Positions 3,342-26,910 of a stretch of DNA of 30,181 bases are shown one piece after another; within the stretch, counting starts at the first letter, position 1; the number at the start of each line of letters is the position of its first letter. Made by a program: the position numbers and the translations under genes. Origin of the DNA: a virus; IMG/VR virus record IMGVR_UViG_3300005910_000021, positions 1 to 30,181 of that record; one strand, 5' to 3'. The notes under the pieces are model-generated. The model was given only the letters and a program-made list of their open reading frames with translations. It was not told the DNA's origin and searched no databases.

Positions 3342-3814
3342 TATATAACATATCCCTCTTCACATATGATAACATTACCATTCCAAAGGTTCAGTATTTC
3401 TTCTTTGTCACAGAAGATATCGTCATTTATGGATATAACCTCCAAATTCTTCAACACATCTTCAAAACAATAATTCAATATAAAGTGCAGTTCGTAAGTA
3501 CTTAAATTTGAAAAATCTAATAGTACCTTGTTATTCTTTCTGAAAAAGGATATAATACCAACACCTTTCTGGTTCTGTATATAATACTTTTTAGACGTGT
3601 ACTTCAGAATATAATTATAGATTCTTATGTTATCTCCTATAATGAACCTATTCGTTTTAGGGTAAAAGGACAAAACTTTCTTTACCTTTTCCTCTGTTGG
3701 ATTAAAGAATGCTAATTTGATCAAATGAACCCTTGATATACCTCTCAAATCCTCATCGTATAGATTATCCTCCGTGATTGTAATAAAATCTGTTCCTATA
3801 CTGGTAATTCTCAT
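3341..3814 (-). CDS. Hypothetical protein next to primase
   Basis: 157 residues, not recognised. It is rich in Ile, Asn, Tyr and Phe with alternating strands and helices and no membrane segment or metal-binding motif. It starts in an ATGA overlap with the primase stop, with AGGAGG inside the last primase codons (Gly-Gly-Lys), so its translation is probably coupled to primase. Position suggests a replication or accessory role, without direct evidence. Confidence 0.6.
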   Translation of the reverse strand: MRITSIGTDFITITEDNLYDEDLRGISRVHLIKLAFFNPTEEKVKKVLSFYPKTNRFIIGDNIRIYNYILKYTSKKYYIQNQKGVGIISFFRKNNKVLLDFSNLSTYELHFILNYCFEDVLKNLEVISINDDIFCDKEEILNLWNGNVIICEEGYVI

Positions 3815-4848
3815 TTACATTTTCCTCCTAATAATTTCAGTCTCCATGGGGAAATCTTAATTTTGGTATAAGCTTTAGTGCTTGAGTATGAATTGTCTAT
3901 AACAAACTTATATATATTATTTATACCAGAACCAACATAAAATTCATTTATATCCTTATATTTATCATTAGAAAACAAAAAGAATTTGGTATTAGGAGGG
4001 GTATTGTTAGAATCTATAAGTTTAAGTATGGATTTTAGACCAGCTTCATCGTTATCAAGGCATACTATCAAACCCTTATTTGTTAATTGTGATATTTCAT
4101 TCAGAAAGTCTTTGGATATTTCACTACCCAAGCAGGATGTTCCTTGACTTCCAATAGTAGCAGCATCAATCAGACCTTCACATATAATTATATATTTGGA
4201 ACTATCAAATTCATGCTTGTTATATATAATACTGCCTTTAGCCAATGTGGGGTTCTTATATTTGGGTAGAATACTATCAATCATTGCTCTTGCTTGGAAG
4301 TAAACAATATGATTATCTTTATCGTATATGGGTATTATAAATCTCCCTTGATAATCACCTTTGTAAGCAACATGTACATTAAGATGGGATATTTTCCTAT
4401 CTCTTATGAATTTTCTTAGAGCTTTCTGATAGATTAGTTTCATATAACCATCAACTCTTTCATCAACAGATATACAGTCATTCAGTATATAATCGTGATA
4501 TTCATATTCATATTCTATTTCCTTAATTATTTTTTCTTTCTTGCGATTGGAAAGTTTTTGGATTAGATAGTCTGGGTCGTATGATTGGAGATCTTTAAGG
4601 GATTGGGCTATGGATATTCCTTTAAGAGTGGAATAAAGAGTAAGAAATGAACCAGATTCATTACAGTTAAAACAATGCCATAAAATTTGCCCCCCATTAA
4701 AATCCATATTAAATCGTTTCTTTGATTTAGATTTCTTTGAATCTCCGCAAAGTGGGCATCTCGATAACACATGGGTACCATTTTTAGAGAGTTTCACACC
4801 TTCCATATATTGATAACAAAATTCAATCATAACATCTAAAGCTATCAT
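3811..4848 (-). CDS. DNA primase (zinc finger plus TOPRIM)
   Basis: 345 residues from ATG at 4848. It makes the RNA primers for lagging-strand synthesis. The N-terminal zinc finger has CPLC at 31-34 and CFNC at 59-62, as in DnaG/T7 gp4 CHC2-type fingers. The TOPRIM catalytic domain has Glu224 (CEGLIDAA) and the Asp265/Asp267 pair in LDNDEAG, which bind metal. RFIIPIYD at 169-176 matches the primase core. It lacks the DnaG helicase-binding tail and any helicase domain, so it resembles the primase half of phage primase-helicases. The upstream TTG at 4854 is a worse start: an AGAGG site sits 7-8 nt before ATG 4848. It follows an HNH gene directly (TAATG). Confidence 0.92.
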   Translation of the reverse strand: MIALDVMIEFCYQYMEGVKLSKNGTHVLSRCPLCGDSKKSKSKKRFNMDFNGGQILWHCFNCNESGSFLTLYSTLKGISIAQSLKDLQSYDPDYLIQKLSNRKKEKIIKEIEYEYEYHDYILNDCISVDERVDGYMKLIYQKALRKFIRDRKISHLNVHVAYKGDYQGRFIIPIYDKDNHIVYFQARAMIDSILPKYKNPTLAKGSIIYNKHEFDSSKYIIICEGLIDAATIGSQGTSCLGSEISKDFLNEISQLTNKGLIVCLDNDEAGLKSILKLIDSNNTPPNTKFFLFSNDKYKDINEFYVGSGINNIYKFVIDNSYSSTKAYTKIKISPWRLKLLGGKCK

Positions 4849-4862
4849 TAACAAACCTCTAT
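4846..4862 (-). promoter_or_regulatory. Primase ribosome binding site inside HNH gene end
   Basis: The last HNH codons (Ile-Glu-Val-Cys-stop) read ATAGAGGTTTGTTAATG, so AGAGG within the HNH reading frame lies about 7 nt before the primase ATG. Stop and start share one A (TAATG). The second HNH gene has the same arrangement at 10130-10147. Confidence 0.8.
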
Positions 4863-5366
4863 TCTTAATTGTTCATACCTGCATCCATCTTTTTGATGCA
4901 CTTTCTTATGGCAAGTATAACATAAAGTAATGCAATTGTCAATATCAGCAGACTCTAATGGATTGGTACTTACTGGATAGATATGGTGGCAATGGAGAGT
5001 ACCGGTAGAACCACACTTAACACATTGATATCCATCCCTTTTCAATACTAATTTTTTTAATTCTGGTTGAACTTCTCTATCCAATTTCAACCATTCTAAT
5101 CTTCCTGCTCTTATTGCATCTTCTCTCATTAATTGTTCAGGTGATTTACCATATATAGAACAGGAATATCTACATTCATCAGAACAATAAAAACGAGATT
5201 CATAATTATAATTACCTTTGAGATATTGAGACCTATTATTGGCATTATAATCTTTTGGTATAAACCATTTATTACATTTAAAACACCTTACTTCTAATAT
5301 ATTCTTATCTTTTGGACTTCTTCTTACCTCTTCACACCATTCTATCTGAGAGGCATAAGTATCATA
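4848..5366 (-). repeat. Duplicated HNH C-terminal segment, copy 1
   Basis: The 519 bp encoding residues 95-266 of the HNH gene are closely similar to 10135-10659. Long runs are identical, for example the part encoding IYPVSTNPLESADIDNC. The similarity includes the stop-proximal codons that make the next gene's ribosome binding site. Confidence 0.85.
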
Positions 5367-5648
5367 AAGAGGTATATGTTTTTTCCATAATTCACCTTTC
5401 CAATTACTATTTTTTTCACCTTTTTGGTTCTTTGATTTTTTTAATTTTCTTTCTTTTGTATTATATCCTTTACCAGCACAAATTTTAGAACAATAATAAC
5501 CTACTTTATTACTTACTTGTGCTAAAAATGGTTCCCCACAAATTTCACATTTCTCTTTGTAAATATAATATACATATCTCTTATCATGCCATTTACCGGT
5601 CTTTTTATTATATTTTAACCCTTCTAAATTATCCCAGCATATTTTCAT
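4848..5648 (-). CDS. HNH homing endonuclease (copy 1)
   Basis: 266 residues. The C-terminal HNH domain has zinc Cys pairs C209/C212 and C243/C246, the HCHH core at 219-222, Asn238 and His247/His251. The centre (95-200) carries further Cys pairs (RCFKC, FYCSDEC). The N-terminus has a separate Cys pair (CEIC, CSKIC) and an NSNWKG element typical of NUMOD-type DNA-binding parts. From residue 95 to the end it is nearly identical to the HNH protein at 10135-11133, while the N-terminal parts differ completely. This is the modular pattern of mobile homing endonucleases: shared nuclease, swapped targeting head. It is wedged directly before primase. Ribosome binding site AAGGAG precedes the ATG. Confidence 0.93.
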   Translation of the reverse strand: MKICWDNLEGLKYNKKTGKWHDKRYVYYIYKEKCEICGEPFLAQVSNKVGYYCSKICAGKGYNTKERKLKKSKNQKGEKNSNWKGELWKKHIPLYDTYASQIEWCEEVRRSPKDKNILEVRCFKCNKWFIPKDYNANNRSQYLKGNYNYESRFYCSDECRYSCSIYGKSPEQLMREDAIRAGRLEWLKLDREVQPELKKLVLKRDGYQCVKCGSTGTLHCHHIYPVSTNPLESADIDNCITLCYTCHKKVHQKDGCRYEQLRIEVC

Positions 5649-5686
5649 AATTAAACTCCTTACTAAGTTAAATTGTTGTGGAGTAA

Positions 5687-5710
5687 GGCTTAGTGAGTAA
5701 GCACTAAGCC
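5687..5710. other. Perfect 9-bp hairpin upstream of HNH gene
   Basis: GGCTTAGTG at 5687-5695 pairs perfectly with CACTAAGCC at 5702-5710 around a 6-nt loop. It lies in an 84-nt non-coding gap between the stop at 5733 and the HNH ATG at 5648. On the minus strand it is followed by TTACTCC rather than a T-run, so it is not a standard terminator. It could protect the mRNA end, regulate HNH translation, or mark the edge of the inserted element. Confidence 0.6.
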
Positions 5711-5732
5711 AAGGTGATCAAACCCTGTCCTC

Positions 5733-5912
5733 CTATTCCTCGAAAAAAATCCCTTTCCAGCATTCATAATCAAAAGGGGTTAATAAGGCTGCCTCTTCAT
5801 ACGTTAAGTCCTTGAATTTCTTATACTTACAGAATATCTTACCATTCTTTATTTTACAATGGAAACAGTTTATACAAAGAGGTGTTGTGTTTTGTTCTTT
5901 TCCATCTTCCAT
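5733..5912 (-). CDS. Small Cys-rich protein
   Basis: 59 residues from ATG 5912 to TAG 5733. Cys13, Cys16, Cys19 of CINCFHC, Cys28 in the following IFCKYKK, and a later Cys (YECW) suggest a zinc-binding knuckle. TLTYEE-like spacing and FDYECWKG resemble small phage zinc proteins, but no family is recognised. The ATG follows the stop of the HTH gene directly (TAAATG), supporting coupled translation. Confidence 0.6.
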   Translation of the reverse strand: MEDGKEQNTTPLCINCFHCKIKNGKIFCKYKKFKDLTYEEAALLTPFDYECWKGIFFEE

Positions 5913-9913: not shown

Positions 9914-10132
9914 TTATGTTCTCATCCCCCTATCAAAATATTCTTCTATTGATTCATCCATATCTTCTGCACTCTTTGCTGCGTTCAATAGTTTATAAGC
10001 TAAAGCCTTTGCTTCTTTGGATGTCAAGTCATACCATTCAAAGGAATCACCATTCCTTTCTTGATATAATAAAACATCAGGTCCCTCACCCCATGTACAA
10101 ACAGCTTTCCAACTATATGGTTTCTCTTTCAT
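9914..10132 (-). CDS. Hypothetical small protein between HNH and reductase
   Basis: 72 residues from ATG 10132 (MKEKPYSWKAV). A longer reading from 10171 would overlap the HNH frame, and its ribosome binding site would be wrongly spaced. An AGAGG site in the HNH tail serves 10132. The protein has an N-terminal beta part (WKAVCTWGEGPDVLLYQ) and a helical C-terminus (SKEAKALAYKLLNAAKSAED). Not recognised. It ends directly before the reductase GTG, so it may be co-translated with it. Confidence 0.65.
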   Translation of the reverse strand: MKEKPYSWKAVCTWGEGPDVLLYQERNGDSFEWYDLTSKEAKALAYKLLNAAKSAEDMDESIEEYFDRGMRT

Positions 10133-10147
10133 TATTAACATACCTCT
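10130..10147 (-). promoter_or_regulatory. Ribosome binding site inside end of second HNH gene
   Basis: The last HNH codons read ATAGAGGTATGTTAATAATG. AGAGG is part of the Ile-Glu-Val coding sequence, and the next gene starts at ATG 10132, 2 nt past the HNH stop. An internal ATG at 10141 is too close to AGAGG to be used. Confidence 0.75.
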
Positions 10148-10659
10148 ATTTTTAATTGTCCATACCTGCATCCATCCTTTTGATGAACTAACTTATGGCA
10201 AGTATAACATAAAATTATGCAATTGTCAATATCAGCAGACTCTAATGGATTGGTACTTACTGGATAGATATGGTGGCAATGAAGATTATTTTTAGAACCA
10301 CACTTAACACATTTATATCCGTCCCTTTCAAGTACTAACTTTCGGAGTTCTGGTTGAACTTCTCTATCAAGTTTCAACCAACCTAATCTACCGGCACGAA
10401 TAGCATCTTCTTTCATAAGTATTTCAGGTGCCTTACCATATACAGAACAAGAATGCTTGCATTTATCTGAACAATAAAAATTATGTTCACCTCTTACATT
10501 TTTGCTACCTTTTAATGATTGTATTCTACTATTAATAATTTTTAAACCTGGTATAAACCATTCATTACACTTAAAACACCTTACCTCCAATAAATCTATA
10601 TTTTTCATATTCCTTCTAACTTCTTCACACCATTCTAATTGAGGAGCATAAGTATCAAA
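10135..10659 (-). repeat. Duplicated HNH C-terminal segment, copy 2
   Basis: The 525 bp encoding residues 159-332 match 4848-5366. Long stretches near the stop are identical at the DNA level. The upstream halves of the two genes show no visible similarity. Confidence 0.85.
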
Positions 10660-11133
10660 GGTAGGTAAGTTATTTTTACAATAAAATTTTGCATTTTTAA
10701 GAATTGTTTTCCTACCTTTTCTTAATGATTCTAACCTTTCATCAGATTCGTTATAACAAATAGGGCATCTTTGTCCTTGCTGAAAACTATTCCATATCAT
10801 ATTAAATATATGACCTTTAAAACATTTAAATTCCAATTTTGTAACATTATTTATATAATTTAAGGAAAGGCATTCATATTGTCCTTTGGTCATTCTTTTA
10901 ACTTCCTCTTTAATATATAAAAGACCTAATTTTGACCTATTGGAGGCATTTATACCTTTACAAATAGGACATCTAACCCCTTGTTGGAAATCATTCCAAC
11001 TAACCTTGTATTTATGACTTTTTGGACATTTTAATTTTATTTTATTATGTGAATCAATATATGATTTACTTAATAATTTATACCCTTCTTTCTCTATTTG
11101 CCCCTTTACATAATCATATGTCAATTTCTTCAT
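10135..11133 (-). CDS. HNH homing endonuclease (copy 2)
   Basis: 332 residues. Residues 159-332 are nearly the same as residues 95-266 of the HNH protein at 4848-5648, including the HNH core (HCHH at 285-288, Asn304, His313, His317) and its zinc Cys pairs. The N-terminal 130 residues differ. They hold two tandem zinc-finger repeats (about 18-59 and 86-127), each with a strand, KCxxxH, then SWNDFQQG or IWNSFQQG and a CPIC pair. Such repeats are DNA-binding modules in several homing endonucleases. The gene lies between thymidylate synthase and the reductase group, a favoured site for homing genes. Its start lies 4 nt after the thymidylate synthase stop. Confidence 0.93.
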   Translation of the reverse strand: MKKLTYDYVKGQIEKEGYKLLSKSYIDSHNKIKLKCPKSHKYKVSWNDFQQGVRCPICKGINASNRSKLGLLYIKEEVKRMTKGQYECLSLNYINNVTKLEFKCFKGHIFNMIWNSFQQGQRCPICYNESDERLESLRKGRKTILKNAKFYCKNNLPTFDTYAPQLEWCEEVRRNMKNIDLLEVRCFKCNEWFIPGLKIINSRIQSLKGSKNVRGEHNFYCSDKCKHSCSVYGKAPEILMKEDAIRAGRLGWLKLDREVQPELRKLVLERDGYKCVKCGSKNNLHCHHIYPVSTNPLESADIDNCIILCYTCHKLVHQKDGCRYGQLKIEVC

Positions 11134-26186: not shown

Positions 26187-26696
26187 TTAAAATACCCCCA
26201 ATTCCTTTAGTGTTTCATTAATTCCAAGTTTCTTCAATTTCAAATTCAAAAACTCTGAAATGGTTGGCTGATAGATCTTTACATGAGGGAACATTTTAGC
26301 TTCTATGCATGATTTATGACCTTTCTTCAGGTTGCATTGCTTACATGAGGCAACACAATTTTCAAAAGTTGACTTACCACCTTTAGATTTAGGGATAACA
26401 TGGTCAATGGTCAATTTCTTAGATTCCTTACCACAGTATACGCATTTGAAACCATCCCTTACTAAAACATTGCGCTTGGAAAACGGCACTTTAGTCTTGA
26501 AAAGGGTTCTAATGAATTTTACTAATTTCAAAACTAACGGAATCCTCATTACCACACTTCCATCGAAGTTCTTAATGATTCTCTCAGAGTACTTTAATAC
26601 TTCTGTTTTACCTTTAACCATTAAGCAAACAGCTTTCTGCCATCCAATTGAACCAAGGTAGCTATAATCTGCATTTAAAAGTATTATATTGCTCAT
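26187..26696 (-). CDS. HNH endonuclease family protein
   Basis: 169 residues from ATG 26696, with GGGGGGT 6 nt upstream. The HNH core has Cys pair CVYCGK (about 90-93), KLTIDHVIPKSKGGKS with the catalytic His, Asn (FENCVASCKQCN) and the Cys-rich finish. The N-terminal half (MSNIILLNADYSYLGSIGWQ, then WQKAVCLMVKGKTEVL) is typical of short, bacterial-type HNH proteins rather than the modular homing genes at 4848 and 10135. It may process DNA in the phage or be a solitary mobile nuclease. Confidence 0.85.
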   Translation of the reverse strand: MSNIILLNADYSYLGSIGWQKAVCLMVKGKTEVLKYSERIIKNFDGSVVMRIPLVLKLVKFIRTLFKTKVPFSKRNVLVRDGFKCVYCGKESKKLTIDHVIPKSKGGKSTFENCVASCKQCNLKKGHKSCIEAKMFPHVKIYQPTISEFLNLKLKKLGINETLKELGVF

Positions 26697-26910
26697 TTTC
26701 AACCCCCCATTTCATTAATTCTTCTAACATAGACTCTATTCTATCTAATTGTTCTTTATCTTCCCTTGTTAAAACTCCATATACAGATCCACCCTGTTCT
26801 ATTGATAAACGCTGTTTTGCTGTGGTACCATTCGTTATCATATAGCTACTATAATCTTCATCTCCATTGGTGACTCTTAAATATTTAGTAGTTTCATCTA
26901 AAATTTTCAT
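26662..26910 (-). CDS. Hypothetical small protein
   Basis: 82 residues. An N-terminal beta part (KYLRVTNGDEDYSSYMITNG) is followed by a coiled-coil-like helix (REDKEQLDRIESMLEELMK). Not recognised. Its 3' end overlaps the HNH gene by 35 nt and carries that gene's ribosome binding site. Confidence 0.55.
   Translation of the reverse strand: MKILDETTKYLRVTNGDEDYSSYMITNGTTAKQRLSIEQGGSVYGVLTREDKEQLDRIESMLEELMKWGVENEQYNTFKCRL

Follow-up and report, generated by a model that had tools for sequence, protein, structure and literature searches.

A structured leader RNA and a Shine-Dalgarno-bearing coding tail at a free-standing HNH endonuclease gene before a phage primase

Homing endonuclease genes depend on insertion beside conserved genes without harm. 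HEARO RNA, the HNH endonuclease-associated RNA and ORF, represents a structured RNA beside an HNH gene, and compact operons place the Shine-Dalgarno sequence (SD) of a gene in the coding tail of the previous one, with TAATG or ATGA at the junction. In systems of the T4 type, hairpins that sequester the ribosome binding site cover the SD of I-TevI/II/III, segB and Aeh1 mobE (PMC2988022). T4 homing endonuclease genes also embed promoters of essential neighbours, as in segG/gene 32 (PMC2988022).

The locus described here lies in a window of 30,181 nt, the whole stretch of viral DNA analysed, and we regard it as probably the downstream end of a mobile endonuclease cassette, with a leader RNA at the front and an SD-bearing tail at the back. 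The leader has a defined anatomy, covaries among its copies and is repeatedly associated with several nuclease families at different positions. Like HEARO, it is a structured RNA beside an HNH gene; unlike HEARO, the element measures about 85 nt, lies in the leader, also precedes GIY-YIG genes and has no Rfam match. As with the T4-type hairpins, RNA structure before a phage homing endonuclease gene covers the SD, and late promoters often lie close by; however, those hairpins are individual, simple structures found gene by gene, whereas the leader is one conserved fold of three stems and a pseudoknot shared by several families. The SD lies within the hairpin stem in the T4 type and is reached here by a pseudoknot from a loop to downstream sequence, which is not a simple hairpin. 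Late transcripts of the T4 type lack the inhibitory structure, whereas TATAAATA-like late-promoter motifs lie here upstream of the whole element (4-14 nt upstream in 12 of 41 copies), so that late transcripts would include all of it; the window copy has no TATAAATA-like motif in the 60 nt upstream. The segG/gene 32 type is alike in that a mobile gene holds its neighbour's expression signal, favouring retention, but that signal is a promoter, whereas here it is a translation start site in the last codons. The junctions at 4848 and 10132 are identical to those of compact operons, save that the upstream gene is mobile.

Table 1. Coordinates of the features at the two HNH junctions and in the leader of HNH1.
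Feature	Position	Strand	Evidence
DNA primase, T4 gp61-like	3811..4848	-	phrog_47 E 2e-44
HNH1, free-standing HNH endonuclease gene, 266 aa	4848..5648	-	PF01844 E 7e-8; phrog_1271
AGAGGT in HNH1 Ile-Glu-Val codons, SD of primase	4855..4860	-	sequence, SD score
Structured leader RNA (GACAG RNA), GGAGGACAG to HNH1 ATG	5648..5733	-	pattern, model R1, covariation
HNH1 SD AAGGAG, 7 nt before ATG 5648	5656..5661	-	sequence, SD score
Pseudoknot 3' strand AGTAAG, complement of P3 loop, overlapping HNH1 SD	5659..5664	-	
P1 3' strand CTCC	5680..5683	-	covariation, single-sequence fold
P3 hairpin GCTTAGTG-CTTACT-CACTAAGC, 8 bp	5688..5709	-	7/8 pairs two-sided; permutation
P2 hairpin GGT-TTGATC-ACC	5713..5724	-	two-sided changes at all 3 pairs
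P1 5' strand GGAG, pairing with CTCC 5680-5683	5730..5733	-	outer-pair covariation
59-aa upstream gene, TAG stop abutting the RNA element	5733..5912	-	sequence; related gene in G001
72-aa gene after HNH2	9914..10132	-	homologue in G001
HNH2, CapR-type N-terminus fused to HNH1-like HNH half	10135..11133	-	PF01844; phrog_559 E 2e-26
AGAGGT in HNH2 tail, SD of 72-aa gene	10142..10147	-	sequence, SD score

HNH1 is inserted between a small gene and the primase (T4-like primases are 25-26% identical to the latter), and the relative G001 has an HNH gene at the same position. HNH2 starts 3 nt after a thymidylate-synthase-like gene. The HNH domain PF01844 scores above the cut-off in both genes, which have homologues in many PHROG HNH families, while the CapR match of the HNH2 N-terminus falls below the cut-off. 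The N-terminal halves of HNH1 and HNH2 differ, whereas their C-terminal 555 bp are 79% identical in DNA, and because these ends are paralogous the two tails are not independent. The paired segments (HNH1 4851-5400 and HNH2 10138-10700, minus strand) represent one nuclease half joined to two N-termini, by domain swapping or gene conversion. In G001 (L057 1306-2220), the gap after thymidylate synthase, which is the place of HNH2, holds a different HNH gene and an extra 76-aa gene. A third HNH gene of the window (26187-26702, minus strand; phrog_16726) belongs to another PHROG family and has no leader RNA. The window also encodes a phage tmRNA (19197-19566, minus strand; tag ADDYNYEYAMAA; Rfam tmRNA 124.9 bits; ARAGORN), which suggests a bacterial host, and metagenome-derived contigs near-identical to positions 1-30181 (99.99-100%) are IMGVR 3300025586_000240 and 3300023292_000016.

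On the minus strand, HNH1 ends in AGA ATA GAG GTT TGT TAA (R-I-E-V-C-stop), with AGAGG at 4856-4860; GAGGT ends 6 nt ahead of the primase ATG (4846-4848), which has one base in common with the HNH1 stop (TAATG). HNH2 ends in AAA ATA GAG GTA TGT TAA, with AGAGG at 10143-10147, and the ATG of the 72-aa gene (10130-10132) begins 2 nt past the stop, at a GAGGT spacing of 9 nt. The preliminary description, which had placed AGAGG in the Ile-Glu-Val-Cys codons of both HNH genes and the following starts at 4848 and 10132, is thus right in its coordinates and spacings. The tail common to both genes is ATA-GAG-GTN-TGT-TAA, and G001 carries GGAGATATGTTAATG where the window has the AGAGGT of the HNH1 tail.

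For 56 reading frames on the minus strand of the window, starts and SD motifs were assigned. Of 34 gene pairs spaced at -15 to +6 nt, 27 have the downstream SD in the preceding coding tail or across the stop; because these tight pairs share the arrangement, a coding-tail SD at the HNH genes is ordinary for this phage and reflects its normal gene packing. There is an even chance that nothing more is needed to account for the tail SD, the HNH gene simply following the spacing rule of its neighbours. Nuclease genes show such a spacing: in 20 copies with an SD in the tail (GIY-YIG genes included), the next start is always at -11 to +6, and where it is at least 13 nt away the tail has no SD of its own, the SD being intergenic or spanning the stop. 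The exceptions are L075 (overlapping start, no SD) and L009 (10 nt, no SD). Non-homologous nucleases of the GIY-YIG type in the same position likewise carry an SD at their end (L095, L098, L099, L111), which makes the tail SD a product of tight packing in general and not something peculiar to the HNH family. Packing accounts less readily for the recurrence of the same tail before at least six unrelated genes, as if it moved with the HNH gene, and for the strong GAG bias of the tail, and it leaves the leader RNA untouched. Among glutamate codons, GAG makes up 9 of 14 in the last five codons and 53 of 364 (14.6%) elsewhere in the same genes (P = 3e-5, relatedness of sequences uncorrected); in ExC-type tails glutamate is GAG in 8 of 9 cases, against a background of 15%. 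Such a bias in the last codons argues for selection on the nucleotides.

HNH homologues were gathered and their tails tabulated against the next gene. A tail of the type R/K-[I/M/T]-E-[V/I/E]-C or K-E-C with GAGG or GGAG recurs among them, and ExC-type tails with these motifs precede the primase (in the window and in G001, whose HNH gene is 75% identical to HNH1), the 72-aa gene (window HNH2), a head-closure gene (L003, L112, L069), a head-tail adaptor gene (L053, L070, L004), a tail-tube gene (L094) and a small gene (L008). Since the same type stands before several unrelated genes, the HNH tail appears to travel with the nuclease gene. This recurrence supports part of the earlier proposal that a mobile gene brings its own translation signal for the gene it displaces; against the remainder stand homologues whose tails lack AGAGG (L007, L009, L011-L014, L017, L020-L022, L024), most of which have the next gene at least 13 nt off with its own SD or have no co-directional gene, and the SD of L110, which was captured.

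Comparison with nuclease-free sites shows that the recipient, too, can supply a tail SD, besides those that arrive with the nuclease. HNH homologues show presence/absence polymorphism at the head-tail adaptor, sheath and head-closure sites. At the tail-sheath site, the leader AAGGAGGAAATATAATG seen in nuclease-free L115 (tail-sheath site AAGGAGGAAATATAATAATG) supplies the codons for the nuclease C-terminus KKEEEEI of L110; because the frame of the nuclease runs on into the leader of the recipient, this SD was captured rather than brought. In L116 the nuclease stop lies just ahead of the recipient leader. At the head-tail adaptor site most relatives are nuclease-free with their own leader (nuclease-free L071 GAGGAGTAATATGAATG versus nuclease-bearing L070 GAGGAGTGTTAATTTTG). 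Different nuclease families occupy the same junctions before sheath, head-closure or adaptor starts in L110, L116, L003, L112, L111, L053, L070 and L074.

Extending capture to the window, so that the tail SD would be the recipient's, the nuclease frame would have run into it at insertion and the HNH gene would have brought nothing, is in our view unlikely. The L110 tail, which equals the recipient's own leader in comparison with L115 and L101, and the AGGAGT that leaders at the head-tail adaptor site share whether or not a nuclease is present speak for it, but GAGGAGTGTT is present in L008 too, before an unrelated gene, EVC and EIC tails recur at several sites, and the HNH-free primase leader differs. 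That leader belongs to G010, the only HNH-free primase relative available for comparison (49% identity); it has its own SD, AAAGGA, as expected if the nuclease displaced the original one. In line with the proposal of a displaced signal, no HNH-free relative with the same sequence before primase was seen, the distant G010 being the single one compared, and the viral and genome collections yielded no close empty primase site, all close primase relatives carrying HNH. In G001 the homologue of the 72-aa gene follows a different gene and is preceded by an SD of its own, AAGGATGATTAAAATG. The overlap of tail and SD is thus real and the arrangement ordinary, its reading as an adaptation is supported in part, and the leader RNA is the more interesting feature.

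Ahead of many homologous nuclease genes, GGAGGACAG recurs, followed by CTTACTCC and then the nuclease SD. The leader consists of P1, GACAG, P2 and P3, with a pseudoknot of 6-7 bp between the whole P3 loop and the nuclease SD. The window copy, whose pattern match has a chance expectation of 0.00 and which scores 57.7 bits with model R1, begins on the last base of the upstream TAG, which is the first G of P1. Its minimum-free-energy fold contains P1, P2 and P3 without help, and the P3 loop (5696-5701) provides the 5' partner of the pseudoknot, which covers half of the SD (about AGG of AGGAGG) in a helix that is weak on paper (-4.0 kcal/mol). GACAG and a UNAC near the P1/P2/P3 junction are nearly invariant and unpaired.

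A regular-expression scan of viral contigs and of the loci in the set gave 41 distinct copies; L093 among them, and L191, match the pattern without the structure and were set aside as chance. Alignment of 38 elements with MAFFT and RNAalifold misaligned P3 through differences in stem length and predicted P1 only; it was replaced by per-sequence parsing with permutations and by a length-matched gapless subset. The P3 loop is typically 6-7 nt long with its complement on the SD of the following gene, and loop and SD region pair over a mean of 6.76 bp, against 3.78 for swapped partners (38 copies, 31 loop strands) and a maximum of 4.45 in 5000 permutations; for P3 alone the permutation comparison is 6.66 versus 4.61. 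In the 17 gapless copies, whose rows leave out the variable linker, 91.6% of pair cells are standard and 16 of 23 pairs show two-sided changes; none of 500 shuffles reaches any of these measures, and slid structures pair at 38-54%. P1 is nearly invariant in the subfamily, while the adjoining outer pair covaries (P 5e-5) and L012 has GAGGG/CCCTC. In a second group with the core GACAGRGGGTWGCTCCCTT, quite different P1 strands still pair, as in L184 (GATAGAAA/TTTCTATC) and an Enterocloster phage (AAGTAAATAA/TTATTTACTT). Model R1 also recovers copies left out of its building. The sequence comparisons thereby establish covariation in the leader and the conserved fold predicted from it.

Mechanistically, the pseudoknot would hide half of the endonuclease SD and keep nuclease translation low or conditional, while the tail SD and the stop/start overlap would give ribosomes access to the displaced gene, either directly or through re-initiation, so that the recipient gene would not be silenced when the endonuclease is restrained. 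Tail SDs would arise in two ways, carried with the HNH gene or produced by a frame reading into the recipient SD, both under the same selection that packs most gene pairs of this phage. If this is correct, a shared, portable leader that restrains the nuclease, with a tail that keeps the displaced gene translatable, would explain the presence of unrelated families at the same sites. It is possible, though we propose it tentatively, that the leader represents a novel class of regulatory RNA in phages, perhaps responsive to a ligand or protein, which has spread as an interchangeable expression module across unrelated nucleases and would allow a selfish nuclease gene to settle ahead of an essential phage gene while its own translation is held back.

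The narrower idea of a ligand- or protein-sensing switch, in which GACAG and UNAC bind something that controls the SD pseudoknot, seems rather improbable. Translational riboswitches are built in this way, with conserved unpaired junction bases and a downstream SD pseudoknot, and the near-invariant unpaired GACAG and UNAC beside the three-way junction, with the SD pseudoknot downstream, form an architecture compatible with this, and no more than compatible; however, conserved junction bases may serve tertiary folding alone, no ligand is indicated and the genes have no common metabolic pathway. It is highly improbable that the 5' element works at the level of DNA, whether within a homing site or as a recombination border. 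In several recipients the insert does have the element at its 5' border, but compensatory changes keep P1, P2, P3 and the pseudoknot paired despite sequence divergence, and in almost every copy associated with a nuclease the pseudoknot reaches the SD. An intron or ribozyme was likewise rejected, as there is no match to group I or any other Rfam family, the nuclease has its own start and no gene is split.

The leader is known in about 55 distinct copies, a count that takes in those from the regular-expression scan, further model hits and the second group, with three or more on some contigs. The genes after it encode HNH, GIY-YIG (PF01541), NUMOD3, EndoVII-like (phrog_1035), CapR-type (phrog_559) and phrog_3339 homing endonucleases. 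HNH2 of the window and the G001 nuclease after thymidylate synthase lack the element, and because HNH2 has a tail SD without it, tail SD and leader RNA are separable. Nor is the element exclusive to endonucleases, since it precedes a DUF5055 gene in L097, L100 and L102 and a gene in L188 that does not look like a nuclease. The DUF5055 copies (L097 6828, L100 5674, L102 2059) have an extended P1, TTAAG-GGGAG/CTCCC-CTTAA, and in L097 and L102 the pseudoknot lies upstream of the SD instead of over it. Rfam 15 gave no family above the gathering threshold and no match of any kind, and no similar element was found in papers on candidate structured RNAs (PMC2864571, PMC8040213) or on phage homing endonucleases. 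The leader provides a signature by which mobile nuclease genes can be sought in phage genomes that lack annotation, and it is a candidate for a new class of translational regulators.

Cultured Enterocloster bolteae phages, CB457P1 and CB473P3 among them, carry a copy about 90 nt ahead of an I-TevI-like gene annotated as intron-associated endonuclease 1, with the pseudoknot CTGCAA/TTGCAG beside the SD. Since model R1 gives that copy only 13 bits, its assignment rests on the shared 20-base core and the re-formed stems; it was retained because P1, P3 and the pseudoknot re-form with other bases, and these members make the leader testable at the bench. Most BLAST matches of the element in cultured phages were discarded, lying within coding sequence with E near 1-10, and the core pattern was absent from 397 genomes of Hungatella's family. 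A scan of genome contigs gave 51 pattern matches that look like chance apart from L124, the only one with the pseudoknot before an SD. There, in a contig of a Lokiarchaeota bin, the element (5246-5315, minus strand) precedes a short frame that looks like a Zn finger and is similar to the nuclease of L110, and the copy is probably a relic before a decayed nuclease frame, or else the bin includes a phage contig.
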